64,000 bases of DNA from Pirellulimonas nuda (GTDB lineage Bacteria; Planctomycetota; Planctomycetia; Pirellulales; Lacipirellulaceae), in assembly GCF_007750855.1 (NCBI RefSeq), contig NZ_CP036291.1, positions 1,240,001 to 1,304,000 on the forward strand, written 5' to 3'. The translations under genes and the position numbers were made by a program. Positions 34,457 to 54,206 of the stretch are shown here, piece by piece (within the stretch, counting starts at the first letter, position 1; each line of letters opens with the position of its first letter). The notes below the pieces were generated by a model. It was not told the origin of the DNA and did no database searches. It worked only from the letters and a program-made list of their open reading frames with translations.

Positions 34457-34494
34457 GACGCGGAGCGCGGGATGATGCGGAGGGGGTAACGCTT

Positions 34495-34561
34495 GGAGCC
34501 GGAAGCGTCAGCGCCCGGAGGTTAACGCGACAAACCTCCGGGCGCTGACGCCTCCGGCTCC
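34495..34561. repeat. 29-bp hairpin, family C
   Basis: Arm 34495-34523 (ggagccggaagcgtcagcgc then ccggaggtt) and arm 34533-34561 are reverse complements with one mismatch and a 9-base loop. It lies between the stop of the small membrane-anchored protein gene and the start of fhcA. The left arm recurs alone at 23072-23096. Confidence 0.92.
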
Positions 34562-35050: not shown

Positions 35051-36052
35051 TCAGTTCAGGCCGACGCTCTCGCCGCCGGCGCGGGTGCCGGCCGCACGCC
35101 AGGGGGCGAGGTCGATATCATCGGCGACCGCTCTGACCGAGCCGTCGAGCATCGCGGCGTTGACGACGCCGGGGTGGTAGCTGCGTGCGGTGATCGCGGC
35201 GTAGGTGGGGACGGTGGTCGATTCGCCGTCGCGCATCGAGGTCACGTCGATGTCGTACTCCACGCCGCCGTTGGTGTAGGGGATGCGTGTGTTTGGGGGG
35301 AAGGTGGCGGTGACGCCCGTTTCGTGCACGTCCCCCTCGACCCACTCCGTGTGCCCGTTGAAGTCGAAGGTGCCGCCGAAGTAGGCGGCCAGCGCCGCTG
35401 GAGTCGCGGGGGCCGGCTCGCCGACCGTCGAGGGGTTGTTCGTGTCCCACACGTTGGGCTGGTAGGCCTTAACCTCGCAGGCCGCCAGGGTCTTGCTGAG
35501 CCCGTCGGAGACCTCGGAAAACTTGAACGGGTGGTTCGGCGCGAAGGCGCCGTCGCCCGCCTTGCCGGTGGCCGGGTCGTACACGAACCAAGTGCCGACG
35601 TTCAGCCCGTAGTTGAGCGGGTAGTAGGTGAGCGTGGGGGTGGCCCGGGCGCGGTCGTTCTCCTCGGAGGGGCACATGTACAGGGCGATGCGTGTTTGAG
35701 CCACTTCCGGATGCTCGGTGAATGGCACGGCGACGTCAAAATCGACTAGGTCCGCAAGCTGCTGCTCTTCGATGTAGGGGAGGATCCGCACCATGGCGGA
35801 GAAGGGCTGGAAGGTCTGCCCGCGGGGGATCTCGGCGAACGGGGGCAAGCGATTCTGGGCGCTCTCGTAGTTCTGCAACGCCAGGCCGACCTGCTTGAGC
35901 TGGTTCTGGCACTGGGAACGTCGCGCCGCTTCGCGCGCCGCCTGCACCGCGGGCAGCAGCAGCCCGACCAGGATGCCGATGATGGCGATCACCACCAGCA
36001 GTTCTACGAGTGTGAAGGCGCGTTTCGTGAGTACGTTGTGTTGTCTCGACAT
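35051..36052 (-). CDS. DUF1559 prepilin-type protein, second copy
   Basis: A 333-residue DUF1559 protein. The leader is followed by AFTLVELLVVIAIIGILVGL and LLPAVQAAREAARRSQCQ. The H-x9-DG motif near the C-terminus reads HPGVVNAAMLDG. It shares overall plan and many segments with the copy at 10891-11928 (DFNGHTEWVEGDVHETG versus ENSGHTEWVDGRSHQTG). Start ATG 36052 was chosen over an adjacent TTG. It is divergent from a two-component regulator, and the spacer has an 11-bp-spaced direct repeat. Confidence 0.9.
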   Translation of the reverse strand: MSRQHNVLTKRAFTLVELLVVIAIIGILVGLLLPAVQAAREAARRSQCQNQLKQVGLALQNYESAQNRLPPFAEIPRGQTFQPFSAMVRILPYIEEQQLADLVDFDVAVPFTEHPEVAQTRIALYMCPSEENDRARATPTLTYYPLNYGLNVGTWFVYDPATGKAGDGAFAPNHPFKFSEVSDGLSKTLAACEVKAYQPNVWDTNNPSTVGEPAPATPAALAAYFGGTFDFNGHTEWVEGDVHETGVTATFPPNTRIPYTNGGVEYDIDVTSMRDGESTTVPTYAAITARSYHPGVVNAAMLDGSVRAVADDIDLAPWRAAGTRAGGESVGLN

Positions 36053-36159
36053 CAATCAGCCCCCGGACCGGTTCTGTACGATCGCACTTGTGCGTCGCCG
36101 TGCGGATTGTAGCCACGCCGCCCGGCCCGCGAAGGCGCATTCTGTGCCGGCGTTGCATT

Positions 36160-38595: not shown

Positions 38596-40059
38596 ATGAT
38601 TAGCCCCTTTCTCCCTGTGCGTTTGGTCTTGCCCTGCCTGCTGGTCACGAGCGCGGCGTTTGCGGCCGCCGATGCGCCGCGGACGGCCACGCCCAACATC
38701 GTGCTGATCATGGCGGACGACCTCGGTTACGGCGACGTTAGCTGCTACGGCGCTACGAAGATCGACACCCCGCACATCGACCGGCTCGCCGAGCAGGGGA
38801 TGAAGTTCACGGACGCCCACACGGCGGCGTCGGTCTGCTCGCCGTCCCGCTACGGCGTGTTGACCGGTCGTTCGCCGTGGCGGCTGCACCGCAAGGGCAA
38901 CGGCTACCGACTCGAGCCGGAGCAGATGACCATCGCCTCGCTGCTCAAGCCGCTGGGCTACACCTCAGCCGCCATCGGCAAGTGGCACCTCGGCTACAGC
39001 AAAGACTGGAACAAGCCGCCGATCACCGGGCCGCTGGAGCGGGGCTTCGACTATCACTTCGGCGTTCCTCAGAACCACAACGATTCGACCCGCGCGTTCA
39101 TCGAGAACCACGACCTGGTGGGTCGGAAGCCGGGCGAGCCGTACCGGATCGTGGAGGGGAAGGACTACCCCGAGGGGCTGGCGGAGCCCCGCGTCGAGGA
39201 CCAGGTCGATACGACGCTCACCAACAAGGCGGTCCGCTTCATCCGCCAGAACGCTTCGGGTCCGTTCTTCCTGTACTTCACGCCCTGCGCGCCGCACACG
39301 CACGTCACTCCGTCGGCCGAGTTCCGCGGGACCAGCGAGGCGGGCACGCTAGGGGACTATATCCAAGAACTTGACTCGCACGTGGGCGAGATCGCCGACG
39401 TGCTAGACGAGCTCGGGATCGCCGACAACACGCTGTTGATCTTTACCAGCGACAACGGCGGTTCGCCCAAAGACTTCAAGGGGACCAACGGCATGAATCT
39501 CAACTTCGCGAGCGAGGCGGGCGACCTCCGCGCGAAGTACCGCACCGCCAAGGCAGACGCGGCCAAGATGGGGCACGCCACCAACGGCCCCTGGCACGAC
39601 GGCAAGGGCTCGCCGCACGAAGGGGGGCACCGCGTGCCGTTCATCGCCCGCTGGCCGGGGCGGATCGCGACTGATTCTACCAGCGACCGGGTGACCTGCC
39701 TGACCGACCTGATCGCCACGGCCGCCGACGTGGTAGGGAGCGAGCTCCCCGACGACGCCGGCCAAGACTCGTTCACCATGCTCCCGACGCTGCTGGGGCA
39801 TTCGACGGGGGAGCCGGCCCGCGAGGCGATCTTTGTACAGGGCGATACGAACGACGACGCGATCGCCGTCTGCACCGGCAAGTGGAAGATGATCGAGCGC
39901 CGGGGCGGCGAGGGAGGCAAGGCGCACGAGCTGTACGACCTCGAAAGCGACCCGGGCGAGACCCGTAACGTGGCGGACAGTCACGCGGACCTCGTGACGC
40001 GGCTGGCCGCGGCGCTCGACAACGCACGCGACGAGGGCCGCACCCGGCCAAAGGGCTAG
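38596..40059 (+). CDS. Secreted FGly-type sulfatase
   Basis: A 487-residue exported sulfatase. Signal peptide up to about residue 25; then NIVLIMADDLGYGDVSCYG (calcium ligands), the maturation signature CSPSRYGVLTG with Cys81 to be converted to formylglycine, GKWHLGY, and the later metal site LLIFTSDNGG. Marine planctomycetes carry many such enzymes for desulfating algal polysaccharides; the substrate cannot be told from sequence. Length and motif order resemble arylsulfatase A-like (S1) enzymes. Not in a visible operon. Confidence 0.92.
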   Translation: MISPFLPVRLVLPCLLVTSAAFAAADAPRTATPNIVLIMADDLGYGDVSCYGATKIDTPHIDRLAEQGMKFTDAHTAASVCSPSRYGVLTGRSPWRLHRKGNGYRLEPEQMTIASLLKPLGYTSAAIGKWHLGYSKDWNKPPITGPLERGFDYHFGVPQNHNDSTRAFIENHDLVGRKPGEPYRIVEGKDYPEGLAEPRVEDQVDTTLTNKAVRFIRQNASGPFFLYFTPCAPHTHVTPSAEFRGTSEAGTLGDYIQELDSHVGEIADVLDELGIADNTLLIFTSDNGGSPKDFKGTNGMNLNFASEAGDLRAKYRTAKADAAKMGHATNGPWHDGKGSPHEGGHRVPFIARWPGRIATDSTSDRVTCLTDLIATAADVVGSELPDDAGQDSFTMLPTLLGHSTGEPAREAIFVQGDTNDDAIAVCTGKWKMIERRGGEGGKAHELYDLESDPGETRNVADSHADLVTRLAAALDNARDEGRTRPKG

Positions 40060-40172
40060 ACGTGGCTGGGAGCACGAGAGTTTGACGCAAAGCACGCGGG
40101 TTTCTGGCCTCGACTCGTTTCTGCTGCGCTGGTAGCCTCTTGCCCCGGTTCCCACTAGCCAGCAGAGCTGCC

Positions 40173-41075
40173 ATGCGACGCGGACTCTCGGTCCTGCTGT
40201 GCCTGGCGCTCCATGCGTGGATAGCCCTAGCCGTACCCGCCCAGTCGCCCAGCGACCTTGAGTTGGAAGGGCTTCCTATCGAGGCCGAGCCGGACGTCGG
40301 TGATCTGCGGTTCCAGTTTGAAGGGCTCGACCTCGCGGGCCGCGAAGAAGAAGAGCAGCAGTTTTCGCTGCTGGAGCGGATCGGCGGCGACCTGCGAAAC
40401 TTCTACGACGCCCCGACGCTCGGCCTGATCGGCGTGGGCGTAGCCGGCCACGCGTTGGTTTCGAACACCAACGCCGATGAGTGGGCCCGCGCCGAGTACC
40501 AAGAGCAGATCCGTTCGATCGGCACCGACGAGGTCTCGGAGTTCGTCCATGGGAACAAGTTCTTCGGCGAGGGGACCTACGTGCTGCCGGTGTTCGCCGC
40601 GGCCACGCTGGCCGGGTTGCCGTTCGATCGCGACTCCTCTGGCGGGCGGGTGGGCGAGTGGGGCGAGCGATCGCTCCGCGCGGTGCTGGTCGGCGGCCCC
40701 CCGATGCTGGGGCTGCAGTACGCGCTCGGATCGTCGCGGCCCGGCGAGTTGGACAGCGCCTCGCATTGGGAGCCGTTCAAGGACACCAACGCGGTGAGCG
40801 GTCACGCCTTCATGGGGTCGATCGGCTTCCTGTCGGCGGCGAAGATGACCGACCGCCCTGGGCTCAAGGCGTTGCTCTATGCGGGCTCCACGCTCCCGGC
40901 CCTCTCGCGGATCAACGACGACGACCACTACGCGTCGCAGGTGGTCTTGGGGTGGGGGCTGGCCTATCTGGCGGTTTCCGCCGTGGACGACACCTACCGC
41001 GAAGAACGCCCCTACCGCCTGCTCCCCGGGCCGGTGGGCGATGGGCTCGGCGTGAACGTGATGTTCGAGTACTGA
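40173..41075 (+). CDS. Exported PAP2-superfamily protein
   Basis: A 300-residue protein with an N-terminal signal (MRRGLSVLLCLALHAWIALA) and a PAP2 phosphatase core. Motif 2 is visible as VSGHAFMGSIGFL (SGH) and motif 3 as SRINDDDHYASQVVLGWGL (SR-x5-H); motif 1 would be near the SSRPGE segment. It probably removes phosphate from a lipid or other ester at the membrane. Start ATG 40173 begins the signal peptide. An acidic stretch of about 60 residues precedes the core. Confidence 0.82.
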   Translation: MRRGLSVLLCLALHAWIALAVPAQSPSDLELEGLPIEAEPDVGDLRFQFEGLDLAGREEEEQQFSLLERIGGDLRNFYDAPTLGLIGVGVAGHALVSNTNADEWARAEYQEQIRSIGTDEVSEFVHGNKFFGEGTYVLPVFAAATLAGLPFDRDSSGGRVGEWGERSLRAVLVGGPPMLGLQYALGSSRPGELDSASHWEPFKDTNAVSGHAFMGSIGFLSAAKMTDRPGLKALLYAGSTLPALSRINDDDHYASQVVLGWGLAYLAVSAVDDTYREERPYRLLPGPVGDGLGVNVMFEY

Positions 41076-41162: not shown

Positions 41163-41786
41163 CTACTCCTTGCTGTCATTGGTGAGCCGCTCCCCCATCG
41201 GGTCGGCCATCACGCGGAGCGTGGTGTCCTTGCGCGACTCGCCCCCGGCGCTGAGCATCCGTTGACCAACGTAAACGCCCATCGCGATCACGCCGAGCGT
41301 GCCGGCCGCGATCAGCGCGTAGGGCACGGCGGCGCCGACCCGGTGGATCGCTTCGTGCTGCCGCAGCGCGCTGTCGAGGCTCAGGCCCGACATGCCGATC
41401 GCCTCGCGCGCCGCGGTGTGCTTGTCTGCGAGGCTCGGCTCGGGCGCCGCGGGTTCGGCCTGGTGCGCGGCCGCGGGCTTCGGCTTCTTCTTTGGCTCGG
41501 CGCCCTCGGGGCGGAGCGCGTGCCGGTCTTTGATGAACGCGAGGTGGTCCTCTACCCGGCAGCCCACGCCGCGCCACGCGCCGATCAGCTTCTCGAAGCC
41601 GGGCTCGATGCCGATTACTTCATCGAACTTGGTCCCCTCGAACGCGATGGCCAGGGCGCCGTCACGCTTGTTCAGGCCGTAGGCGATGCGGTTGTCGAGC
41701 AGCTCGGCATACTTCTGAAGCTGCGCAACCTCGGCGGCCGTGGGTTGACGGTTCGGGGGGAAGACGAGGTAGCGGTAGGGGGCCAT
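41163..41786 (-). CDS. Hypothetical protein with C-terminal membrane helix
   Basis: A 207-residue protein I cannot assign. Residues 1-100 are globular (PYRYLVFPPNRQPTAAEVAQ; LDNRIAYGLNKRDGALAIAF), then a Lys/Pro/Ala-rich linker, an amphipathic part and one membrane helix near residues 160-180 (YALIAAGTLGVIAMGVYVG). The tail is charged. This order suggests a cytosolic domain anchored by its C-terminal region. Start ATG 41786 was used; a GTG three codons upstream is possible. No clear ribosome-binding site. Confidence 0.6.
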   Translation of the reverse strand: MAPYRYLVFPPNRQPTAAEVAQLQKYAELLDNRIAYGLNKRDGALAIAFEGTKFDEVIGIEPGFEKLIGAWRGVGCRVEDHLAFIKDRHALRPEGAEPKKKPKPAAAHQAEPAAPEPSLADKHTAAREAIGMSGLSLDSALRQHEAIHRVGAAVPYALIAAGTLGVIAMGVYVGQRMLSAGGESRKDTTLRVMADPMGERLTNDSKE

Positions 41787-41842
41787 AGCAGCCACTATAA
41801 CGCGATTGCCCCTCGGCTCCAGAAGTGACCGCGCAAGAAAAA

Positions 41843-41874
41843 GCCGCCGATCGGCGAAGGGGCCGATCGGCGGC
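41843..41874 (-). terminator. Intrinsic terminator
   Basis: Gccgccgatcggc (41843-41855) and gccgatcggcggc (41862-41874) form a perfect 13-bp stem with a 6-base loop. On the minus strand the stem is followed by a TTTTT tract (41838-41842). It stands 25 bases after the stop of the four-repeat protein gene and is the clearest rho-independent terminator in the window. Confidence 0.9.
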
Positions 41875-41899
41875 GTAAGCGACGCACTAGGGGTTAACC

Positions 41900-43639
41900 C
41901 TATTTCCTGGACGAGCTTTCGTTCTGAGCGCGGCGCACCCGGGTGGCGTCGCCGTTGGCGCTCTCGACCTCAAAGGCGACCAGCACGACTTTGTCGCCCG
42001 CCTTAACAGCGGCGCCGTGGACCGTCAGTTGGGTCCCCTTCTTGAGGCTCTTGTCCAACGCGTCGGGGGCGCCCAGGTCTGCGATCACCCGCTTGCCCTG
42101 GTCGGTCTTGAGCGTCACGAGCTGGCGGGGCTCGCCACGCAGCGTGGCCTGCTGCATGCTCACGATCTCACCAGAGACGCTGGACTTATCGGCCAGCCGC
42201 TCGTTGCTCTCGCGGCCGGCGACCTGCGAGGAATCGTTTCCGAGCTTCAGCGTCCGGACGATCATCACCTGCTTGCCCTGGGGGCTTTGGGTGATCATGC
42301 CGGTTGCCGTGACCCGGTCTCCCTTGCGGAGGTCGCGTTGGAACTTCTCGGCGGGGCCGAGGTCGATCAGAAGCTCTCCTCGATCCGAGTCGATCTTGGC
42401 GACCTGCCGCTCCGTCCCGCGGACGTCGAGCCGCTTCATGCTCACGACCTCGCCAGAGAGCGTCCGGCCTTGGCGCGATTGGCTCTCCTGCTGGTCGGAC
42501 TTAGCGGTCTGCGAAGGTTCCTGCGAGGCGTTCTTCGACTTCCGGCTGTTGCGACGGTCGATCGACACTTTTTCGCCGTCGTGCCGCAACGAGTCCGCTA
42601 AGAGCATGACCCGGTCGTTCACTTTCGCCGGGGCGCCTTGCACCTCGACTTGGTCGCCGTTCTGCAGGTCGACGTCGAGCGACTCGGCCGGACCCAGATC
42701 GACCAACACCTTCTTTTCCTTGCCGGTCTTAACGATCGCGGCCGTGTGCTGCTGGCCGCCCGCCTTGAACTGGCGCGTGTCGACGATCTGACCGCTCATC
42801 TTCTGGCGGTTGCGCTCGATCTGCTTCGACTGGCCATCGACAGAGGCCTTCTGGGCCACGAGCACGCGCTTGTCGCCCACTCTGGCCATGGGACCGCTCG
42901 CCTTGAGCTGTGTCCCCTTCTCGATGTTCATCGAGCTCAGTTTCTCAGCGGGTCCGAGGTCCACGATGACCACTTCGTTGGCGTCGCCGTCGTCGGGCTT
43001 GACCATCGCGACAAGGTGCTTCGAATCCCGCACCGAAGTCTTCTTGGTATTGGCGACCTTGCCGGTCACCTGCCGGGCCTCTGAGGAGCCCGAGGCCGTC
43101 TGCTGGGTGCGCGACGACTTTTGGCGATCCGAGTCTTGGGGGTCGCCAAAGGTGAACACCTCTACGTCCTCGTACAGCCCGTCGTTGTCCGTGTCGGCGA
43201 ACGAGTAGTAGGCGTCGTAGAACCCGTCGCCGTCGAAGTCGTACAACGAGTACGAGAAGTCGTACCTCCCGTCGTCGTTGGTGTCGTCGTAGTAGGCGTA
43301 GCCGTCGTCCCAGTAGTCGTAATACCAGTTGTCGGCGGCGTAGCGATCGTCGTAGCCGAACGACTTCGCAGAGCCGTTGGACGCGCGATCGTCGTTGTCG
43401 TACGAGTCGTAGCCGTCATACGAGTTGTTGTCATAGACGCTTTCGTCGTAGTAGTCGCCGCTCTTGGTGGCGGTGTCCGTCCGCTTGTAGCCGTCGTCAT
43501 CGAACCATTCGCTGACGTCGTACCAGGTTTCTTTCTCGTAGTAGGGCGAGTTCTCGACCCACTCTTCTGCCCCGAACGCCGGGGCTGTAAAGACTGCTAG
43601 CATCACTCCGGTGATGCAGGCGCTGAACGGGTGATTCAT
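41900..43639 (-). CDS. Secreted Asp/Tyr-rich protein with four tandem domains
   Basis: A 579-residue exported protein (signal up to AFGA, residue 24). Residues about 25-165 are dominated by Asp and Tyr and contain calcium-loop-like units DTNDDGRYD, DFDGDGFYD and DTDNDGLYED. Then come four copies, each 75-95 residues, of one domain: (S/T)G-(K/E/Q)-(V/I) at the start, a V-x-DLGPAE core (DLGAPD in copy 4), then KGxxLxxxG and a final VLVA-like strand. Charged linkers separate them. The repeat looks like a small beta barrel, perhaps OB-like. AAGGAG precedes the ATG and a terminator follows, so it is one transcription unit. Function unknown. Confidence 0.85.
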   Translation of the reverse strand: MNHPFSACITGVMLAVFTAPAFGAEEWVENSPYYEKETWYDVSEWFDDDGYKRTDTATKSGDYYDESVYDNNSYDGYDSYDNDDRASNGSAKSFGYDDRYAADNWYYDYWDDGYAYYDDTNDDGRYDFSYSLYDFDGDGFYDAYYSFADTDNDGLYEDVEVFTFGDPQDSDRQKSSRTQQTASGSSEARQVTGKVANTKKTSVRDSKHLVAMVKPDDGDANEVVIVDLGPAEKLSSMNIEKGTQLKASGPMARVGDKRVLVAQKASVDGQSKQIERNRQKMSGQIVDTRQFKAGGQQHTAAIVKTGKEKKVLVDLGPAESLDVDLQNGDQVEVQGAPAKVNDRVMLLADSLRHDGEKVSIDRRNSRKSKNASQEPSQTAKSDQQESQSRQGRTLSGEVVSMKRLDVRGTERQVAKIDSDRGELLIDLGPAEKFQRDLRKGDRVTATGMITQSPQGKQVMIVRTLKLGNDSSQVAGRESNERLADKSSVSGEIVSMQQATLRGEPRQLVTLKTDQGKRVIADLGAPDALDKSLKKGTQLTVHGAAVKAGDKVVLVAFEVESANGDATRVRRAQNESSSRK

Positions 43640-43913
43640 GTCTTGTTCTCCTTAGGAATGGGAGATTGATAGGGGAGCGCAGACGACCGCCGCCCGGCAT
43701 GCTCCGCCGCGACCAGACGCCGCGGACTGATACGGGCCACTGCCCGTCGTGCCAAGCTTCCGCAGCATTGATGCCAAAGCGGATTTCGGCGGAGGTTTCG
43801 CGGCATCGGGCGTGCATCTGGTCGGCGCGCCGCCAACGGCTCGCCGGCCGAGGGGCCAAGTTGGTTGACGCGCCGGCGGCTACCCGGCGCGATGCAAGCG
43901 CGCCGCGGAGCGG

Positions 43914-45446
43914 TTACTCGGTCCCCTCCGGCGCCTCGGCCGCCCGCTGGATGCCGCGCAGCATGCCCCCGAAGACGACGTGGTGCAGCGGCAGCACCGA
44001 GTACCAGTAGGCGAGCCCCGACAGGCCGCGGGGGCGGAAGCGGGCCGTCATGGTGAGGTTGGTCGCTTCTGCGCTCTCGGGATCCTGGGTTTGGGAGTCC
44101 TCGGTCTGGGGGTCGCCGCCGGCGGGCGTGCCGCCGGTGGGGGCGAGATCGAAATCAAGCCGCGCCACTCCCGGCAGCTTCATCTCGGCCAGCAGCCGGA
44201 GGGAGCGGTCGCGCTCCAGCCCGACCACGCGCCAAAAATCGAGCGCCTCGCCGAACTCGACCTCGTTGGGGTCGCGTCGGCCGCGTCGCAGGCCGGGGCC
44301 GCCCACCATCAGGTCCATCCAGCCGCGGATCCGCCAGAGCACATCGGCGGAGTACCAGCCGTGGCCACCCCCAACGCGGCACACGGCGCGGAAGACCCGG
44401 GCGGGTGTGGCCTGGATGGTGATCGAGCGGATGTCTTCGAACACCTTGCCGCCGGCCCAATCGGGGTCGCCGGGGATAGGCCCGGCGGCGGACCAGCGGG
44501 TGGGGACCTCGCCGGCGCGGGTCCGCTTGACCGCACGATGGATGGACTCTTGCACCCCCAGTGGCGTGTGGGGCATGAGCTCCGCGGCGCGGTGGTCGTT
44601 CACGACCACTCGGTTGCGGAGCCCTTCGGCCAGCGGCCTGGCGATGCGGTGGCTGACGGGCGTCACCAGTCCGATCCAGTGGGAACTGAGCTTGGGCGTG
44701 AGCACCGGCACCGGCACCACCCAGCGTTCCGGGAGGCCAAGCTCGCTGGCCATGATCTTCATGAGCTGATCGTAGCGCATCACGTCGGCGCCCCCGATCT
44801 CGAGCGTCTGGCCGACCGTCTCTGGCGTCCGCAGGCACTGCGCCAGCCAGTACAGCACGTCGTCGATGGCGATCGGCTGGCTCTGTGTGCGCACCCAGGA
44901 AGGGGTGACCATCACCGGCAGTCGTTCCACCAGGTAGCGGAGGATCTCGAACGACGCCGATCCCGAGCCGATGATCATCGCCGCGCGCAGCGTCGTGAGC
45001 GGGACGCCGGTCGAGGCGAGCGCGTCTTCTACCTCGCGTCTGGAACGCAGGTGCTCGCTCAGGCCGGCCCCCATCTCTCCGAGCCCGCCGAGGTAGATCG
45101 TCCGCGGCAGGCGGGCCTCGGCCGCGGCGCGGGCGAACTTCTCAGCAAGCTTGCGGTCGTGACCGGCGTAGTCCTCCCCCGAGGAGATCATCGAGTGGAT
45201 CAAGTAGTAAGCCGCGGAGCACCCACGCAGGTGATCGACTAGCAGAGACTTGTCGGACAGGTCGTCCTTGACCACCTCAACCCCGGGCTGGTTCCGCCAC
45301 GGCCGAAGCTGGAGCTTGCGGGGTTCGCGGACCAGACAACGCACGCAGAGACCGCGCTGAAGCAGTTCCGGCACGAGACGCCCCCCGACGTAGCCGGTGG
45401 CGCCCGTAACGATCACCGGCGCTGGCGGACTAGCGGAGGGACCCAT
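43914..45446 (-). CDS. NmrA-like SDR with DUF2867 domain
   Basis: A 510-residue protein. Residues 1-300 are an extended SDR/NmrA-type NAD(P)-binding domain with VTGATGYVGGRLVPELL at the N-terminus. Residues about 325-500 match DUF2867 (FEDIRSITIQATPARVFRAV; VVGLERDRSLRLLAEMKLPG; GLAYWYSVLPLHHVVFGGML), a START-like fold. It has a Gln/Glu/Asp/Thr-rich insertion near residue 450. The family is found in many bacteria; substrate unknown. No operon partner is obvious. Start ATG 45446 gives MGPSASPPAPVIVTGATG. Confidence 0.85.
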   Translation of the reverse strand: MGPSASPPAPVIVTGATGYVGGRLVPELLQRGLCVRCLVREPRKLQLRPWRNQPGVEVVKDDLSDKSLLVDHLRGCSAAYYLIHSMISSGEDYAGHDRKLAEKFARAAAEARLPRTIYLGGLGEMGAGLSEHLRSRREVEDALASTGVPLTTLRAAMIIGSGSASFEILRYLVERLPVMVTPSWVRTQSQPIAIDDVLYWLAQCLRTPETVGQTLEIGGADVMRYDQLMKIMASELGLPERWVVPVPVLTPKLSSHWIGLVTPVSHRIARPLAEGLRNRVVVNDHRAAELMPHTPLGVQESIHRAVKRTRAGEVPTRWSAAGPIPGDPDWAGGKVFEDIRSITIQATPARVFRAVCRVGGGHGWYSADVLWRIRGWMDLMVGGPGLRRGRRDPNEVEFGEALDFWRVVGLERDRSLRLLAEMKLPGVARLDFDLAPTGGTPAGGDPQTEDSQTQDPESAEATNLTMTARFRPRGLSGLAYWYSVLPLHHVVFGGMLRGIQRAAEAPEGTE

Positions 45447-45505
45447 GATTTAGCCGCTCTGGGTTCGAGTGGGAAATCGGATGATGCGCGATCGGTCGGA
45501 CCGCT

Positions 45506-45706
45506 TCACAGCGGGATGGCGGGCAGCCACCCCAGCTTAGCGTAGAGGCGTAGGCCGCAATCCGCGACAATCCGATCCAAGGCCCCACGATGCGCCGCGA
45601 CGTCACGGCGGACACGAATCCCAGCCAAGACCCCTGGCAGGACAACGATCGCCCTGCCTCGATAGAATTCAAGTAGCACCGGCACGCCGTGGGCAAACCC
45701 CGCCAT
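45506..45706 (-). CDS. Small hypothetical protein
   Basis: A 66-residue reading beginning MAGFAHGVPVLLEFYRGR, with strand-like and helix-like segments (AIVVLPGVLAGI; ALDRIVADCGLRLYAKLGW). It begins 11 bases after the stop of the 70-residue gene on the same strand. A longer in-frame form would overlap that gene. No strong ribosome-binding site. I do not recognise a family; it may be the second gene of a small operon. Confidence 0.45.
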   Translation of the reverse strand: MAGFAHGVPVLLEFYRGRAIVVLPGVLAGIRVRRDVAAHRGALDRIVADCGLRLYAKLGWLPAIPL

Positions 45707-45717
45707 GCGACCGGTGA

Positions 45718-45930
45718 TCAGGAGTTTGGGGCTGAGCCCTTCATCTCGGTAGAGATCCGCAGCTTTCCAGACAGCACCCACGCGGCGTGCTTGGCGTCCG
45801 TCCCGACTCCGCTGGGGATTTTGATCTGCATTTGGTCAAATTCATAGTGAATCACGGCGCCCCGACCGGTGAGGCGGTCGAAAAGCCCTACCGCGAGTTC
45901 TGGCCAATCGTTTGTCTGCTGATCTGCCAT
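45718..45930 (-). CDS. Small hypothetical protein with good ribosome-binding site
   Basis: A 70-residue soluble protein (MADQQTNDWPELAVGLFDRL to KGSAPNS). An AAGGGGA sequence precedes the ATG at suitable distance, which together with codon use supports translation. Predicted alternation: helix (ELAVGLFDRLTG), strands (AVIHYEFDQMQIKIP), helix and strand (AAWVLSGKLRIST). Not recognised. It is divergent from the DinB-like gene and upstream of the 66-residue gene. Confidence 0.6.
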   Translation of the reverse strand: MADQQTNDWPELAVGLFDRLTGRGAVIHYEFDQMQIKIPSGVGTDAKHAAWVLSGKLRISTEMKGSAPNS

Positions 45931-46097
45931 GGTTTTCCCCTTTTTTGGAAAGAAAAGAAATGAGAGCAACTCGGCGAGCCGCTCCGCCTGCGGGCCTTTG
46001 ACGTCCGGTCTCCTGATGCGTCTGATCAGAGTGTAGCGGCATGTAGTAGGATGACGACCAAAGGCGCAACACGTTTCTGGCCGCGCCTCAGGAAGCT

Positions 46098-46637
46098 ATG
46101 AACCTGACTACACCTTGGAGCGCCTCGTCGATGAGTCACCATCGAATCAACCGGATGATTGAACAGAGCGAAATGGTCCGGCGAGTGCTCAAGGGCTACC
46201 TCACCGACCTGACGCCCGACCAGTGGTTCTGGACCCCCGGCGAGGGGCTGACGCACGTCGCGTGGCAGATCGGGCACCTCGCCGCCAGCGAGTACGCGTT
46301 GCTGATGAAGCGCGTCCGCGGCGCTGAAAAGGCCGACCAAGATTTCATGCCCGACGCGTTCTTTGCTCAGTACGGGCGGGGGTCGACACCCGACCCCGAT
46401 CCGTCCGCCAACTGGCCCGTTGACGACATCCTGCTTGTGTTCGACGACGTTCACGACCGCTGCATGGCCGCCGCCGCGGACTACGACGAGGCCGAGCTCG
46501 TCGAGCCGCTCGAACAGCCCCACCCGGTGTTCAAGACCAAGCTGGCCGCCATCGAGTACCAACCGATCCACGAGGCGATGCACATCGGCCAGGTGGTGCT
46601 GCTGAGGCGGCTGATGGGCAAAGCGGCTAGCTGGTGA
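46098..46637 (+). CDS. DinB-family (DinB_2) protein
   Basis: A 179-residue four-helix-bundle protein of the DinB/YfiT superfamily. Candidate metal-binding histidines are in GLTHVAWQIGHLAASE and near the C-terminus in YQPIHEAMHIGQVVLLRRL. Members act as thiol-dependent transferases or hydrolases; the specific reaction is unknown. AGGA precedes the start ATG 46098; a Met at codon 12 is an alternative start. Its stop overlaps the end of fhcB on the opposite strand by 11 bases. Confidence 0.8.
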   Translation: MNLTTPWSASSMSHHRINRMIEQSEMVRRVLKGYLTDLTPDQWFWTPGEGLTHVAWQIGHLAASEYALLMKRVRGAEKADQDFMPDAFFAQYGRGSTPDPDPSANWPVDDILLVFDDVHDRCMAAAADYDEAELVEPLEQPHPVFKTKLAAIEYQPIHEAMHIGQVVLLRRLMGKAASW

Positions 46638-47874
46638 GCCGGGGCGGTGTGATCCGGTCCAACAGTTCCGTAAGCACTTCGGCTGCGGTTGGCAGTTGGT
46701 CATCGCGAAACGGCCGGAGTTCGAGCGGCACGCCGTCTACGCGCAGCACCGTGCCGCCGCAGGCTGCGCCCGGCTCGGCGATAGCGATCGCGACGCGAGC
46801 GGCGCGTAGCGTCGCGGAGTCTTCGTAGCCCAGCGCTACGTAGGGTGCGGCCCTTAGGGCCTCGGCTGCTTGTGGCGTGGTGTGGGCCAGCAGGTCGTCT
46901 CCTGCCACCAGCGCCGCGTCGACTCTCCCGCCTGTCAGCAGCGCCGCGGTGTTGTACTGCTGGGGGGCGTAGCGCGGCGCGCCCGACGCAAAGCTAACCG
47001 CCGCCGGGTAGCCGGTCTGCCAGGCGAGCACGCTCTCGGCGCCGTGGGGGTTGCCCTGCGCGCCCAACGGCAGCGCGACGCAGCGTGTGTGGGCGTGCAG
47101 CTCCTGGCACAGGGCCGCCAGCGCGCCCAGCCCAGCGTGGCCGGCGCCGGCCAGCGTGTGACTGTAGAAAACGGCGACGTAGCCGGAGGAAGTCAGGGCC
47201 GATGCAAGCTGTCGCAGCGGCGCGGAGGCCTCGATAGCCTCGCCGCGGATCAGCATCCGCAGCGCGGCCAGCGTGGCGAGATGATCGCCCCCCAGCAGCG
47301 CCGCGCGCTCATCGGCGAAGTCGGCCCCGGGGTCGTCACTCACGCACCAAACGCGGCGTGGCGAGGCGCCGTCGTCGGGGGGGCGTACGAAGCGCGACAG
47401 GTGACGCGGGTGGCTTTCTCGCGGATCGCACCCCCAGTACACCACCAGGTCGGCACGCCGGCGGACCTCGCCCAGCGTGGCGGTCGACGCCCCCTGCTGC
47501 TGAAACGCGGCGTGGTGGGCCAAGGCCTCGGGCCCAGATGTCCAGTCGGCCAGCGCTCCCAGGCGGTCCGCGAGGGCGACCGCGGCGCGTTGTCCCTCCA
47601 GCGTCTGGCCGGCCCAGCCGCACACCAGCGGCGACGAGGCCGATGCAAGAAGCTCGGCGGCCGCGGTCAGGGCCTGCTCCAGCGACGCGGGCTTGCCCCC
47701 CACCCGGCTGGGGGGAAAAGCGGGCCGTTCGCGGCCGAGCCACTCCCGGCCCAGCTCGCAGGAAATGGCCGACGCGGGCCATTGGTTGCCAGAAAACCGC
47801 GCCGCTGGGGGGATGTCGTCGCACAAGCAGCCGCAGCCGAGACAGACGATCGGCAAACCTGGAACCGGGTTCAT
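46627..47874 (-). CDS. fhcB: Formyltransferase/hydrolase complex subunit B
   Basis: A 415-residue homologue of formylmethanofuran dehydrogenase subunit B. Seen: the N-terminal cluster CLGCGCLCDDI, then ISCELGREW; WGCDPRESHPRHLSRF; and the C-terminal VLRVDGVPLELRPF typical of FwdB/FhcB. In methanogen FwdB the metal-ligand Cys (or Sec) occurs in a T-C-E-A segment; here the equivalent reads QTLEGQ, with Leu instead of Cys. That fits Fhc complexes, which hydrolyse the formyl carrier without a redox centre. Start ATG 47874 gives MNPVPGLPIVCLGC. fhcA lies at 32792-34456 and is not adjacent. Confidence 0.9.
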   Translation of the reverse strand: MNPVPGLPIVCLGCGCLCDDIPPAARFSGNQWPASAISCELGREWLGRERPAFPPSRVGGKPASLEQALTAAAELLASASSPLVCGWAGQTLEGQRAAVALADRLGALADWTSGPEALAHHAAFQQQGASTATLGEVRRRADLVVYWGCDPRESHPRHLSRFVRPPDDGASPRRVWCVSDDPGADFADERAALLGGDHLATLAALRMLIRGEAIEASAPLRQLASALTSSGYVAVFYSHTLAGAGHAGLGALAALCQELHAHTRCVALPLGAQGNPHGAESVLAWQTGYPAAVSFASGAPRYAPQQYNTAALLTGGRVDAALVAGDDLLAHTTPQAAEALRAAPYVALGYEDSATLRAARVAIAIAEPGAACGGTVLRVDGVPLELRPFRDDQLPTAAEVLTELLDRITPPRLTS

Positions 47875-48075
47875 GCTGCGGCGTCTGGCGGGTCGATCCG
47901 TGCTAGGAGAGGGCCGTGTCCGGTAGCGTACGCTCCGCCGGGCCCCCCGCCAACGGGCGAAAATCGGCAGCAATCCGCGGCATTTCGGCGCAGTGGACTA
48001 TATGGGCTGGCCTGATCGGGTAAGATAGGCGGTCGTGTAAGCAATGAAGTCGGCGGATGAGATAGCGAGGTAGCC

Positions 48076-49095
48076 ATGAGCCAAACCACTACGCTGCGGC
48101 CCGAAGTGTCGCCTGAGGTTGCGCCCGAGGAGGCACTCGACGCGCCGCTCAATTCGACGCATGTCGATACAAAACGTCTGGACCTGCCCGAGGGGGTCGA
48201 CACCAGCATCGTGCAGTGGGGCTACGCGATCTCGTTCGTCGTGATCCACGCCGCGGCCTGTTTGATCTTCGTGCCGTGGCTGTTCTCCTGGGTCGGCGTC
48301 ATCACGTTTTTGGTCGGCATGCACGTTTACGGGCAGCTTGGCGTCCCCATCTGCTACCACCGGCTGCTGACGCACAAGAGCTTCAAGTCGCCGAAGTGGT
48401 TCGAGCGTTCGCTCGCCACGCTGGCGTTGTTCAGCGCGCAAGAAACGCCCGCGCGGTGGGTGGCTTGGCATCGGATGCACCACCAGCACTCCGACCACCA
48501 GCCCGACCCGCACAGCCCGCTGGTGACCTTCTTCTGGGCGCACGCCGGCTGGCTGTGTGTGCGGAACAAGACCACGCACAACTTCCTGAACTACGAGAAG
48601 TACGCACGCGACATCTTGCAGGACCCCTATTACATGTGGGTCGAGAAGCTGCCGATGCCGATGCTGCTGTTCTTCACGGGTCACGCGGCCATCTACTTCG
48701 CCGTGGCGTGGGCAATCTCGGCCTGCTTCTACGGGCCGGCCAGCATGGAAGCCCTGCGGATCGCGCTGAGCGTGCTGGTGTGGGGCGTGTTCGCCCGTGT
48801 GGTGCTGGTGTGGCACTTCACTTGGAGCGTGAACTCGCTCTCGCACCTGTGGGGCTACCGCAACCACGAGACCACCGACGACAGCCGCAACAACTGGTTC
48901 GTGGCGATCGTCACCGGCGGCGAGGGTTGGCACAACAACCACCACGCCGACCAGTCGTCCGCCAGCGTGCAGCACCGTTGGTGGGAGATCGACACCAACT
49001 ACTACATCATCCGGCTGTTCGAGAAGGTCGGCCTGGCGTGGGACATCGTGCCGCCGCTGCACGTCCGGCGGGCCGAGCAAGCCCGCACGAAATAG
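48076..49095 (+). CDS. Acyl-CoA/lipid delta-9 fatty acid desaturase
   Basis: A 339-residue membrane desaturase. The three histidine boxes for the di-iron site are present: HRLLTH, HRMHH and HNNHH. Four membrane helices are apparent (for example FVVIHAAACLIFVPWLF and IALSVLVWGVFARVVLV). The pattern HRLLTHKSF and the box spacing match stearoyl-CoA delta-9-type enzymes, which introduce a double bond into saturated acyl chains to adjust membrane fluidity. A variable acidic N-terminus of about 45 residues precedes the core. It is divergent from fhcB and followed by a strong hairpin. Confidence 0.92.
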   Translation: MSQTTTLRPEVSPEVAPEEALDAPLNSTHVDTKRLDLPEGVDTSIVQWGYAISFVVIHAAACLIFVPWLFSWVGVITFLVGMHVYGQLGVPICYHRLLTHKSFKSPKWFERSLATLALFSAQETPARWVAWHRMHHQHSDHQPDPHSPLVTFFWAHAGWLCVRNKTTHNFLNYEKYARDILQDPYYMWVEKLPMPMLLFFTGHAAIYFAVAWAISACFYGPASMEALRIALSVLVWGVFARVVLVWHFTWSVNSLSHLWGYRNHETTDDSRNNWFVAIVTGGEGWHNNHHADQSSASVQHRWWEIDTNYYIIRLFEKVGLAWDIVPPLHVRRAEQARTK

Positions 49096-49118
49096 CCGGG
49101 CGACGTAAGCCCCAATGG

Positions 49119-49182
49119 CCAAGCCTAAACGACCAATACGCGCAGGGCGGTAACCCTGCGCGTATTGGTCATTTAGGCTTGG
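49119..49182. terminator. 29-bp stem hairpin after the desaturase gene
   Basis: Arm 49119-49147 (ccaagcctaaacgaccaata then cgcgcaggg) and arm 49154-49182 pair with one mismatch, with a 6-base loop (cggtaa). Ttttt follows at 49183, making it terminator-like on the plus strand. The caatg/gacca words relate it to the inner repeat at 8860-8920. Confidence 0.88.
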
Positions 49183-49386
49183 TTTTTGGTCGTTTTCTCT
49201 CTGTAACGCCCCCTACGCCGCCGCGTACGTGAGGGTGAAGCCTGCCCCACCCCGCCAACCGGTCGGGCAAGGCTTTCCGGCTGGGTCAACGCCTCCGGGA
49301 AACGTCTGACGTTTGCAGTCTTTCGACGTGCGTGACCGATCTCTCTCTACAGCGTTAGAAGAGTAGAGGTTCAGGAGGCCACGCCG

Positions 49387-49668
49387 ATGCACAACCAAGA
49401 TTTACTACCAATCCGTCCTGAAGAGTTCCCCCCAGAGAAGTGCGTCCGCAAAGTGCGGGCCACCCTCTACCTGCCGGCCGACCTGTTGGACGAGGCGCGT
49501 AACGCCGCATTCCACCTGGCCGGGCCGCCAGCACGGATGACCCTGACGAAACTGGCCGAAGCAGCGTTCCGCCAAGAACTTGAACGCCTCAAACAGGCGT
49601 ACAACGGCGGACGCGACTTTCCCCCGCGCACGGAGCAGCTCCGGGGCGGCCGCCCCCTCGCAGCCTAG
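49387..49668 (+). CDS. Ribbon-helix-helix-like DNA-binding protein
   Basis: A 93-residue basic protein. The segment KVRATLYLPADLLDEARNAA with a following helix (LTKLAEAAFRQELERLKQAY) looks like a ribbon-helix-helix DNA-binding domain, similar to CopG or ParB-C-type centromere-binding proteins. It ends GGRPLAA, a small Gly/Arg-rich tail. A strong AGGAGG lies about 10 bases before the ATG. It stands directly before a 67-residue gene with its own AGGAGG, so the two form a small unit. Target unknown. Confidence 0.7.
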   Translation: MHNQDLLPIRPEEFPPEKCVRKVRATLYLPADLLDEARNAAFHLAGPPARMTLTKLAEAAFRQELERLKQAYNGGRDFPPRTEQLRGGRPLAA

Positions 49669-49683
49669 GAGGCCCGCGCCTCG

Positions 49684-49887
49684 ATGTGGTCACCCGCCCC
49701 CCCCGTACCGACCGAGATCAGTCCACCCGGAAGACTCAACGTGTTCTCCCTGCCCGCCGTGGAGACCCCCGTCCTGCGGCCGTCGCTCACCCAGCTCCGC
49801 GCCAGGTTGCTGAGGATGATCCTGGAGAACGAACGCATCCGCGCCAACGATCAGGCGAGGATCCACTCAACAGGTCTGCGGGCCTGA
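49684..49887 (+). CDS. Small hypothetical protein following the RHH gene
   Basis: A 67-residue protein with a Pro-rich start (MWSPAPPVPTEISPPGRL) and a basic amphipathic helix (SLTQLRARLLRMILENERIR). AGGAGG at 49667-49672 precedes the ATG by 11 bases and overlaps the stop of the RHH gene, which supports translation and coupling. No family recognised. It may be a partner or accessory to the RHH protein. Confidence 0.5.
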   Translation: MWSPAPPVPTEISPPGRLNVFSLPAVETPVLRPSLTQLRARLLRMILENERIRANDQARIHSTGLRA

Positions 49888-49895
49888 GAACGCGT

Positions 49896-50012
49896 GCGAG
49901 CCGGGGCGTCCCCGCCCCCGGCGCAGCGGAGAGAACTTCGTCCATCGAGCCAGCCGCACCCAGTGGCGGCGCGGACGCAGCCGCCTGCGGGGGCGGAGAC
50001 GCCCCGGCTCGC
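49896..50012. repeat. GC-rich inverted repeat, family A copy 3
   Basis: Arm 49896-49920 contains gagccggggcgtccccgccc; arm 49988-50012 is its reverse complement with one mismatch in 25. Its 27-base core (49898-49924) is identical to copy 1 at 10661. It lies between the 67-residue gene and the serine protease gene, and its right arm ends about 40 bases before the protease start. Confidence 0.9.
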
Positions 50013-50053
50013 TTGCAAGGCAAACACCGAAACCCCCAAGCCGCGCGACCCGT

Positions 50054-50974
50054 TTGAGACGCCGCCCCGCCATCCTGCTTGCCGCGATAGCCCTGGCGAG
50101 CGCCGCCGGGGGGGCCGTGGCCGCTGCGCCCCACCCCGCGGTGGCGCGGATCTCTGTGGTTGAGACGGGCGGCCAGGCGTTCGGCTCGGGCACGCTGATC
50201 GACGTCCGCGACCGGTACGCCCTGGTGGTCACCAATTGGCACGTGGTCGAGGGGGCCGTCGGGAAGATCGAGGTGACCTTCCCCTCTGGGTTCAAGAGCG
50301 AGGCCCTCGCGCTGAAGCTGGACGAGACGTGGGACCTCGCGGCGCTAGTGATCTGGCGGCCGCCGACCGAGCCGGTCGCCATCGCCAAACGCCCGCCGCA
50401 GTCGGGCGAGCGGTTGACCATCTGCGGCTACGGCCAGGGGGAGTACCGCGCCATCTCTGGACAGTGCCGCAGCTACTACTCCCCGCGGACCGGGTACCCC
50501 CAGGAGATCGTTGAGCTGGACGTCGAGGCCCGACAGGGGGACTCCGGCGGGCCGATCTTCAACCAGCGGGGCGAGCTGGCCGGCGTGCTGTTCGGGGCGG
50601 GGCAGGGGACCACGCTCGGGAGCTTCGGGCCCCGCGTAGAACGGTTCTTGGCGACGCTTTCGCCCGGCGCGGCCCGTGGCGAGGGGCGTCCGCAATTGGT
50701 CAAACAGGCGGCGCCCGCGGCCGCCGCTGCGGCGGAAGAACCGGCCGTAGCGGCCGAGCAGGGGCCCACCGGGCCCGCCGACCTTGAGCCGGCAGGGGCG
50801 GTTGCCGCGGCGGGGGCGTTCCCAGCGCCAGCGCCGGTAGAAACGCCGGCAGAGGCCCCTGAAATCGAGGGTTTGCCCGGGCCCACGGTCGACTGGCTGG
50901 GGGAGGGGAAGACGCTGCTGGCCATTGTGGCGCTCGCCTTCGTGCTGATGCAGGGCGCGCGGCTGATGGTTTGA
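50054..50974 (+). CDS. Membrane-anchored trypsin-like serine protease
   Basis: A 306-residue protein: N-terminal signal (PAILLAAIALASAAGGAVAA), then a chymotrypsin-fold protease domain with catalytic His in VVTNWHVVEG, Asp in ETWDLAALV and Ser in ARQGDSGGPIF. A Pro/Ala/Glu-rich linker (residues 210-280) leads to a C-terminal membrane helix (TLLAIVALAFVLMQGARL). The domain is thus tethered at the cell surface or periplasm. The start is TTG at 50054. No PDZ domain, unlike HtrA/DegP. It ends next to the SHD1 protein gene. Confidence 0.82.
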   Translation: MRRRPAILLAAIALASAAGGAVAAAPHPAVARISVVETGGQAFGSGTLIDVRDRYALVVTNWHVVEGAVGKIEVTFPSGFKSEALALKLDETWDLAALVIWRPPTEPVAIAKRPPQSGERLTICGYGQGEYRAISGQCRSYYSPRTGYPQEIVELDVEARQGDSGGPIFNQRGELAGVLFGAGQGTTLGSFGPRVERFLATLSPGAARGEGRPQLVKQAAPAAAAAAEEPAVAAEQGPTGPADLEPAGAVAAAGAFPAPAPVETPAEAPEIEGLPGPTVDWLGEGKTLLAIVALAFVLMQGARLMV

Positions 50975-51072
50975 GCCGCGGCAAGATAAGTTGGCGGTTT
51001 GGCCACCGGTCTGTTAGCCTTGCGTTGTGGACCGTGGGTTTGTTCCGCCCCTCCAACGCCGGGGAGTTTTCC

Positions 51073-52317
51073 GTGGCAGACGCGGGCCGTCATCTGCTCA
51101 TCACGTTACTTGCGTTTTCCGCCATCGGGGCCTTGCGGGCCGATGCGCGGCAATGGGTCAACGACCGCGGCCAACGGGTCGAGGGAGAACTGATCCGTGT
51201 GTCGAAGTCGATGGCGTACCTGAGCGTCAACGGCAAGACCGTTGAGGCGCCCATCAACCGGCTGAGCGAGGCCGACCAGGCGTATCTCGAGGCCTACCAG
51301 CAGGCCCACAAGTACCGCGACTGGGAGACACGCGACGGCGAGTCCCGCCGGGCCCGCTTCCTGCGGGTGGAGGGGGAGACCGTGACGCTCCAGTTCCGCG
51401 GCGAAGAGATCGAGCTGAAGCTCAGCGACCTGATGGACGACGAGCAGCGGCTGGTGGCGTCTGTCTCGGAGGAAGCACAGCCCCGGTCGCCGAGGCCTGC
51501 GCCGTTCGGGCAAGCCCCCCCCGAAGCGGCGGCCGACGCCGGCCCCCCGCGGCAGTGGACCAGCAACGACGGCAAGACCATCACCGCCAGGTTCGGCGGC
51601 GTTGAGGGGGGTAAGGTGGTGCTGTTGATGGACGGCAAAGAGTTCCGCGTCCCCGAAGACCGGCTCTCCGCGGCCGACCAGGCGTACATCGCTCGGCAGA
51701 GCACGACGCCGCCCGCGGCGGTGGCGGAGTCGCGCCCTGCGCCGAGCAGCTTCCCGTCGATGGACACCGACTTCCAGACGCGTCACGAGCAAATGGTGCG
51801 AGAGAGCCGCGAACGGATGGAGAGGCTGCGGGCCGAGGCCGACGCGCGGCACGAGCAGCGGATGGCGGAGATGGCCTCACGTTCGGCCGCGCCGGCTCCC
51901 GACGTAAGCGCCCCCACTCACAGCATCCCTTCTCATTTTGATTCCCCCGCGGCAGGCCCCTCTGCTTCGAGCCTGGCCGATTCTGATTCAGCACCCGATG
52001 TGTCGGCGTTCCCCACCCCGCGTGGCCCCACCTACGCCCCCCCCACGCTGCCGGCGCCGCGGGCGTCTCCCACGTACCCCACGTCGGGCGAGTACAACGT
52101 GATCATCTGCGGCAAGTGCAGGCACGAGAACGCGCTCCCCTTCAAAGCGGGCGACAAGTGCCGCAAGTGCGGCACCCGGATCGACATGATTGAGAACGAA
52201 GACGGCTCGATCCAGAGCTCGTCGCCGCAGTACTGGGCGCGCAACGTCCGCGGAATGATCTTCGGCGGCATTTTCGTGGCTAGCATGATCGGCGCGTTGA
52301 TCAAAAAGTTCTCCTGA
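51073..52317 (+). CDS. Triple SHD1-domain protein with zinc ribbon
   Basis: A 414-residue protein. After a signal-like start (HLLITLLAFSAIGALRADA) come three SHD1-like repeats: ARQWVNDRGQRVEGELIRVS to SEADQAYLEAY; RDWETRDGESRRARFLRVEG to MDDEQRLVAS; and RQWTSNDGKTITARFGGVEG to SAADQAYIARQ. Then a Ser/Pro-rich coiled region, a zinc ribbon (ICGKCRHENALPFKAGDKCR, then KCGTRI) and a C-terminal membrane helix. SHD1 domains are common in planctomycetes and bind peptide motifs in eukaryotic Sla1. Start GTG 51073 has GGGGAG six bases upstream; an earlier TTG start overlaps the protease gene. Confidence 0.8.
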   Translation: MADAGRHLLITLLAFSAIGALRADARQWVNDRGQRVEGELIRVSKSMAYLSVNGKTVEAPINRLSEADQAYLEAYQQAHKYRDWETRDGESRRARFLRVEGETVTLQFRGEEIELKLSDLMDDEQRLVASVSEEAQPRSPRPAPFGQAPPEAAADAGPPRQWTSNDGKTITARFGGVEGGKVVLLMDGKEFRVPEDRLSAADQAYIARQSTTPPAAVAESRPAPSSFPSMDTDFQTRHEQMVRESRERMERLRAEADARHEQRMAEMASRSAAPAPDVSAPTHSIPSHFDSPAAGPSASSLADSDSAPDVSAFPTPRGPTYAPPTLPAPRASPTYPTSGEYNVIICGKCRHENALPFKAGDKCRKCGTRIDMIENEDGSIQSSSPQYWARNVRGMIFGGIFVASMIGALIKKFS

Positions 52318-52337
52318 TCGCGTCGAATCCCAGCGCG

Positions 52338-52826
52338 TCAGCCGCCGAGCCGTGCGCGTAGGTCGGGGATGATCTCGCGCGGCACGAACCGCGCCAGCTC
52401 TTCGTCGTCCGCCAGCGGCGTGATCTGCTTGATGAGCGAGCTAGAGACGTGAGAGAACTCGTCGTCCGCCATCAAGAACACCGTCTCGATGCCGGGGTCG
52501 AGCTTGCGGTTGGCGAGCGTCATGGTGAACTCCGTCTCCATGTCGGTCAGCGAGCGCACGCCGCGGACGATCACCCGCGCGTCGCACTCGCGCACGAACC
52601 GCACCGCTAGGCCGTTGAACTGCCGGACCTCGACGTTGGGGAGCTTCGCGGCGACGCGCCTGAGCAGCTCGACCCGCTGCTCCGCGGTAAACAGCGGCTG
52701 CTTGTCGACGTTCAGCCCTACGCCGACGATCAGCTCGTCCACCAACCGGCTGCTGCGCTCGATCACGTTCCAGTGGCCCAGCGAGATAGGGTCGAACGAG
52801 CCCGTGTAGACAGCGCGGCGAGACAT
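52338..52826 (-). CDS. coaD: Phosphopantetheine adenylyltransferase
   Basis: A 162-residue CoA-synthesis enzyme transferring AMP from ATP to 4'-phosphopantetheine. Seen: the nucleotidyltransferase motif TGSFDPISLGHWNVI (with the HxGH-type site as LGH), RGVRSLTDMETEF, and the C-terminal DDEFSHVSSSLIKQI. Length matches bacterial CoaD (about 160). It is convergent with the SHD1 gene (20 bases between stops) and followed upstream by a heptad repeat spacer. Confidence 0.94.
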   Translation of the reverse strand: MSRRAVYTGSFDPISLGHWNVIERSSRLVDELIVGVGLNVDKQPLFTAEQRVELLRRVAAKLPNVEVRQFNGLAVRFVRECDARVIVRGVRSLTDMETEFTMTLANRKLDPGIETVFLMADDEFSHVSSSLIKQITPLADDEELARFVPREIIPDLRARLGG

Positions 52827-52840
52827 GGCGGAGGGATAAG

Positions 52841-52970
52841 GCGTTAGGTGTTAGGTACTAGTCGTTAGGTGTTGGGCGCTAGGTGTTGGGCGTTAGGGGG
52901 GCGGGCCCGGAGCTGAGTCTAGCAGGGAAGGCACAACGACTAAGACCTAAAACCTAAAACCTAACTACTA
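52841..52970. repeat. Inverted heptad repeat of gttaggt units
   Basis: The left part (52841-52897) is a run of seven-base units such as gttaggt, gttgggc, gctaggt. The right part (52935-52970) carries the inverse class (aacctaa, gacctaa). Pairing is imperfect but extends over about 20 bases (ttaggtactagtcgtta against caacgactaagacctaaa). The right part ends at the stop of the class V aminotransferase gene. Confidence 0.75.
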
Positions 52971-54128: not shown

Positions 54129-54153
54129 CCGCCAGCCCCAGTCAATCACAAAC

Positions 54154-54185
54154 ACCCGCGGCCGGCGTTGCTGCAGACCGCGGGT
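54154..54185 (-). terminator. Possible terminator hairpin
   Basis: Acccgcgg (54154-54161) and ccgcgggt (54178-54185) form an 8-bp stem with a 16-base loop, between the stop of the 95-residue gene and the start of the aminotransferase gene. On the minus strand it is followed by gtttgtg, a weak T-rich stretch. Confidence 0.45.
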
Positions 54186-54206
54186 GGTTCAAAATCAATC
54201 AGACAA

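Follow-up and report, generated by a model that had tools for sequence, protein, structure and literature searches.

A putatively exported planctomycete protein that combines an acidic region with DxDxDG loops and repeated units predicted to adopt the OB fold

The Gene and Its Surroundings

The window, which is the whole 64,000-nt stretch of Pirellulimonas nuda DNA that was analyzed, carries on its reverse strand a gene for a secreted-type protein with an acidic N-terminal part and four repeated units (Table 1). A preliminary description of this DNA had proposed that the gene is real and self-contained and that its product is secreted, and the flanking signals agree with the first of these points, as the 579-aa open reading frame (ORF) begins with ATG, has a good ribosome-binding site and is followed by a 13-bp GC-rich hairpin, with TTTTTCTT 3′ of the stop codon, and a T-rich tail. 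Two terminator-like sites were found in the scan, compared to 1.6 expected in shuffled sequences, and both correspond to this same hairpin. No sigma-70-like promoter was found in a scan of positions 41780–43850. The signal peptide was called by eye, as were the similar leaders seen in 27 printed homologues, and the protein also contains Q/S/N/R-rich linkers. The gene is a real gene of planctomycetes, and its product is probably exported.

Table 1. Features of the gene and of its flanking sequence (positions are those of the window).
Feature	Position	Strand	Basis or remark
Whole gene, 579 aa + stop	41900..43639	(-)	ATG start; homologues in 8/43 family genomes, own included
AAGGAG ribosome-binding site, 8 nt 5′ of ATG	43648..43653	(-)	From sequence
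Putative Sec-type signal peptide, ~aa 1–24	43568..43639	(-)	By inspection
N-terminal motif, conserved, aa 30–55	43475..43552	(-)	23/30 unit-bearing genes, 21 genomes
Asp/Tyr-rich four-strand sheet with three DxDxDG loops, aa 114–163	43151..43300	(-)	Loop starts aa 119, 134, 149
Predicted OB unit 1, aa 189–278, A-type	42806..43075	(-)	BLASTP, profile, model, tree
Predicted OB unit 2, aa 279–364, B-type	42548..42805	(-)	BLASTP, profile, model, tree
Unit 3, aa 392–477, extra copy	42209..42466	(-)	Tree: inside B clade; profile: A/B tie
Unit 4, aa 487–572, extra copy, B-type	41924..42181	(-)	BLASTP, profile, tree
Intrinsic terminator: 13-bp stem, 6-nt loop, T-rich tail	41835..41874	(-)	Terminator scan

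Nearby lie a sulfatase gene (38596–40059, forward strand; Pfam Sulfatase, E 1.1e-52), an ORF at 40140–41075 with a PAP2 match just under the cut-off (25.1 versus 27.2 bits), and a reverse-strand gene (43914–45446) that joins an NmrA/NAD-binding domain and DUF2867 in one protein. A 448-aa ORF (46627–47973, reverse strand) matches Pfam Molybdopterin only weakly (E 0.22), and it presumably resembles a formylmethanofuran dehydrogenase subunit.

The Four Units and Their Predicted Fold

Four copies of a unit had been noted in the preliminary description, and all six pairs align by BLASTP (E 1e-13 to 5e-9 in a database of these four only; 30–38% identity). A profile of the four copies, the check suggested at the time, recovers all four together with the matching units of the fetched family homologues. 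The two motifs then ascribed to every copy hold in part, with the V-x-DLGPAE core being exact in copies 1–3 while copy 4 reads ADLGAPD, and KGxxLxxxG being exact in copies 1 and 4 while copies 2 and 3 have NGDQVEVQG and KGDRVTATG. Across the four units G, D, L, G, G, and G are invariant. In an alignment of unit pairs, K153, D156 and R157 are each present in 27 of the 30 rows (the rows without R157 have K instead), and unit 1 has K at position 71 in 24 of the 30.

The unit, which had been described as belonging to no recognized family, is indeed undescribed by Pfam and NCBIfam, the latter giving nothing credible for either the protein or its units. The result named in advance as counting against this was a clear match to some annotated domain whose function is known. 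The PilZN domain of YcgR (PF07317) does exceed its gathering score with the whole protein (30 bits versus a cut-off of 23, in two stretches), yet the match is partial, the best stretch covering profile positions 38–73, that is, 36 of 107; the domain is also found in 4 of the 29 single units (best E 0.0035), with member 1 at 17.7 bits. None of the OB models in Pfam reaches its cut-off: tRNA_anti-codon reaches 24.5 bits with the whole protein (cut-off 27), and among the 29 units there are weak matches at E ≤1 to tRNA_anti-codon (5) and tRNA_anti-like (3). The whole protein has no match in the plasmid collection, and a literature search on Rhodopirellula baltica and secreted OB-fold proteins found no paper. 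Further literature listings contained no title about the protein family, and none of five terms looked for occurs in PMC2754498.

The preliminary description had guessed at an OB or SH3-like barrel, and structure prediction points to the former. In an AlphaFold2 model, units 1–2 form two OB folds (mean pLDDT 91.8), each a five-stranded barrel built of three strands, a short helix and two strands, while the pTM of 0.63 makes the placement of the barrels relative to each other less sure. With VIA-align, PriB superimposes with a Z score of 11.3 (rmsd 1.9–2.1 over 79–80 residues), mostly on unit 2, and one of the listed matches, to SSB (Z 9.9), falls on unit 1. SSB is also the best of the Foldseek matches (E 2.8e-5), 19 of which are at E 0.001 or better. 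The units of the window protein are thus predicted to carry an OB fold, as modeled for units 1–2. The predicted fold is shared with PriB and SSB (1woc, 2pnh, 4gs3, 1se8), whereas sequence identity is 11–21% among the 50 matches listed, no sequence-family link was found, and the window protein differs in having a signal peptide, tandem units and an acidic DxDxDG region. Neither an SSB nor a PriB family was found for the 29 units at E 1 in Pfam and NCBIfam, searches that weak matches can escape. A comparison of the unit profile with the sequences of solved structures gave five weak hits at E 5 (best E 0.17), none of them SSB or PriB, and was set aside.

The Acidic N-Terminal Region

Ahead of the units, the three DxDxDG-type loops that the preliminary description had placed in an Asp/Tyr-rich stretch are present with a spacing of exactly 15 residues, and all three have Asp or Asn at positions 1, 3, and 5 and Gly at position 6. 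Three or more such loops occur in 1 of 2000 shuffles of aa 24–165 (mean 0.14), where the pattern was chosen after the sequence had been seen. At the DNA level the stretch is a 45-bp repeat of 2.6 copies (TRF). The three turns lie between strands, 15 residues apart, and in this they resemble the calcium-binding loops known from EF-hand, dockerin or FG-GAP proteins, whereas no calcium-binding Pfam family was found for the protein at E 1 and no Foldseek match for the N-terminal fold at E 0.001. It is plausible from the loops that the turns bind calcium, and they probably do so.

A conserved motif that the preliminary description did not mention lies at about aa 33–55 (YYEKETWYDVSEWFDDDGYKRTD), near WYDxSEWFDGNDYNPTDE. 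In an alignment of 28 rows E10, W14, D16, E19, W20, F21, D22 and others are invariant. The named loci were found with two peptide patterns, the N-terminal motif and a DxDxDG loop, so conservation of both among these loci is partly built in. Independent of that selection, the motif is present at E 0.001 in 23 of the 30 unit-bearing genes of 21 genomes that had been found by their units (excluding G057, with gene numbers taken from the unit and motif tables), and it occurs in all nine proteins of the window's taxonomic family. The seven unit-bearing genes without it include three on contig C36 of genome G100 and one each in G108, G126, G257 and G290. These genes, together with the selection bias, weaken the case for the motif. 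In the distant relatives L095–L098 one DxDxDG-like loop is present and the motif was not seen by eye. A general sorting signal was considered and rejected, as all 23 motif matches in 28 genomes fall in genes of the window's protein family.

The N-terminal part has a charge of −22 to −58 in all 27 homologues. Its model is poor (mean pLDDT 61.7), being weak over about aa 26–112, with a pLDDT near 50 in the motif region; the exception is aa 114–163, a four-strand sheet at about 83–90. With VIA-align the N-terminal fold reached a Z score of at most 5.7, with kinetochore chains, which is not convincing.

Homologues and History of the Units

Homologues were found by protein search in 8 of the 43 genomes of the window's family, its own included. 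The unit profile is positive in 10 of 59 relatives and, across the order, in 22 of 296 genomes (one of them, G057, at no better than E 8e-4). Across the phylum, the unit-pair profile is positive in 17 of 392 genomes. In the window's own genome the unit profile has four matches, all of them the gene's own units. Among named genomes at least 26 loci were confirmed from at least 588 pattern stretches, with homologues, among the matches listed, in Rhodopirellula, Stieleria, Rubripirellula, Roseiconus, Neorhodopirellula and MAGs.

Two units are present in 26 of the 27 proteins of the named records, among the matches listed, and four in the remaining one (L041), while in the window's family six of nine proteins have four units and three have two (L009 and L010 being a single protein). 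Among the six family members with four units, unit 1 is A-type in five (one tie), units 2 and 4 are B-type in all six, and unit 3 is B-type in five, with that of the window protein tied. In a tree of 84 units, flagged for its few columns, the family's units 3 and 4 fall inside the clade of second units (99/96), so the four-unit form would be a later expansion, and the window protein would consist of an ancestral A–B pair and two later copies of the B unit. Units 3 and 4 of L041 pair together (98/88) outside that clade, and by this tree extra units appear to have arisen twice and separately, once in the window's family and once in L041.

Several other arrangements were observed. In Rhodopirellula maiorica (L050:4432–7098) two divergent paralogues lie side by side on opposite strands, and a 14-kb stretch of contig C36 of G100 (42520–56173) holds three paralogues that all lack the N-terminal motif at E 0.001. 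Among the far relatives, L101 combines the unit with a PDZ domain, and L102 combines it with two PRC barrels.

Genomic Neighborhood

The gene has few neighbors in common with its homologues: among 37 fetched loci, the ORF at 32795–34507 is shared with one, the ORF at 35054–36055 with two and the sulfatase with four. The neighborhood set for two other families of the order comprises 13 genomes with 21 unit-bearing genes, and here BrkB, which we take to be linked to stress, lies within 8 kb of a unit gene in 8 genomes, compared to 0.09 expected (the 8-kb limit was chosen after the positions had been seen), and within 2 kb in 4. These eight genomes are not independent, because they belong to four of eight genera. 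As a control, the 67 Rhomboid genes of the same 13 genomes all lie 74 kb or more from a unit gene, and no genome has one within 8 kb (0.25 expected). One of the 13 genomes has CHAD nearby and two have baeRF3 (0.06 and 0.05 expected), and rows under the cut-off, three for BrkB and one for CHAD, were excluded from the neighbor count. None of the eight genomes from the window's own family has BrkB near a unit gene, and the single copy in the window's own genome is about 4 Mb off along the contig. Other stress-type neighbors, picked by eye and without a control, are YflT, DUF1269, MscS-BON, EcsC and a trehalase-like GH15, all of a kind that presumably marks stress islands; single CHAD and baeRF neighbors were likewise picked by eye.

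Proposed Function and Alternatives

The observations in the preliminary description were thus confirmed, and its interpretation as a calcium-binding envelope or matrix protein was partly supported. The reading that we tentatively prefer, with slightly less than even confidence, is of an exported, multi-domain, ligand-binding envelope protein that protects or organizes the envelope under stress. The signal peptide would carry the protein across the inner membrane. The acidic N-terminal region, which holds the WYD-SEWFD motif and the four-strand sheet with its probably calcium-binding DxDxDG turns, would position the protein, stabilized by that calcium, while the OB domains would present a ligand surface, with the conserved K and R around the β4–β5 turn, and hold a periplasmic or surface ligand. 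The most likely role would then be that the envelope is protected or organized under stress. The computations bear out the gene, its homologues, the boundaries of the units, the OB prediction for units 1–2, the unit tree and the BrkB neighborhood in the two other families; export, calcium binding, the stress role and the ligand, like placement in the envelope or matrix, are what we infer. Counted in favor are the predicted OB fold, the conserved basic positions, the split in charge and the BrkB context in the two other families, and counted against are the lack of BrkB near the unit genes of the window's family, the poor model of the motif and the seven unit-bearing genes that lack it. A protein that might work in a like manner is YgiW/SipA of the BOF family, a periplasmic OB protein in stress, and one report (PMC6370654) describes SipA as binding antimicrobial peptides in the periplasm; unlike it, the units of the window protein have no BOF among the Pfam families listed for the 29 units at E 1.

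OB barrels look alike whatever their ligand, and the fold reveals no ligand. This bears on the alternative that the protein is a secreted binder of nucleic acid or another polyanion, in which basic OB loops would grip extracellular DNA or an acidic polysaccharide of the surface matrix and the acidic part would provide an anchor via calcium. The nearest solved folds, PriB and SSB, do bind ssDNA, the K and R of the β4–β5 turn are kept, and the OB part is positively charged (+1 to +13) in 25 of the 27 homologues (−1 in two), but the net charge of the single window units is only 0 to +6, no conserved aromatic residue was noticed by eye in the unit alignment, and the family searches with the 29 units gave neither SSB nor PriB at E 1, and we consider this alternative unlikely.

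Tandem barrels and an acidic head could also serve as a passive structural spacer that thickens or crosslinks the planctomycete surface without a specific ligand. The separate gains of extra units in the window's family and in L041, the Q/S/N/R-rich linkers and the patchy presence within the family would suit such a role, but the turn residues are conserved over 30 unit pairs, beyond what a spacer seems to need, which makes it a rather improbable explanation.

In comparison to the envelope-protein reading that we prefer, a further alternative comes from relatives of the unit, L105–L108, which are small secreted proteins of one or two units with a common WYIENQD segment. Three of them match NCBIfam MamS (NF040991; L105 at E 1.3e-5, L106 at 1.5e-4 and L107 at 1.1e-3), and L106 also matches MamX (NF040996) at E 0.047. 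A profile of these small proteins compared with the units of the window's family gives a probability of 96% and a score of 50.9, and this bridge is strengthened by 60 column-shuffled controls that score far lower, at most 15.1. MamS and the C-terminus of MamX have also been modeled as OB folds, and deletion of mamS is reported to lead to defects in crystal size and morphology (PMC3905215). The link is, however, indirect and far under the cut-off, the best match being 25.4 versus 200 bits in a distant relative, and the proteins of the window's family differ in their acidic head and in the number of units, which is two or four. Of 14 well-known genomes used as controls, 3 likewise contain MamS matches below the cut-off, so these weak matches are not specific, and MamS has no match to the 29 single units at E 1 (NCBIfam) or in the window's own genome at E 10. 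That the OB units and the very acidic Asp/Tyr face of the N-terminal part steer the deposition of metal or mineral at the cell surface, in the manner of MamS, is doubtful.

The same bridge, a weak score well above its shuffled controls, suggests that the magnetosome domain could be an example of a common type of exported OB domain. A speculative extension, which we regard as unlikely as a whole, is that the OB domain of MamS and MamX belongs to or derives from a wide class, as yet without a name, of OB-fold proteins that bacteria export. The window's family would be an elaborate branch of this class, in which the conserved motif, an acidic sheet dependent on calcium and the multiplied OB units would jointly deal with a ligand of the envelope, or with a metal, during stress. 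For a probably exported protein of planctomycetes that is undescribed in Pfam and NCBIfam, the present analysis supplies a predicted fold, a family boundary and a history, and the WYD-SEWFD motif and the turn residues are named starting points for experiment.

The small secreted relative L107 gave 16 hits against the sequences of solved structures, 15 of them ubiquitin chains (best E 3e-6); none of its stretches passes alone, and the hits were rejected as spurious. L107 also matches four cyanobacterial plasmid records, and in three of these the gene at the match is named hypothetical protein.
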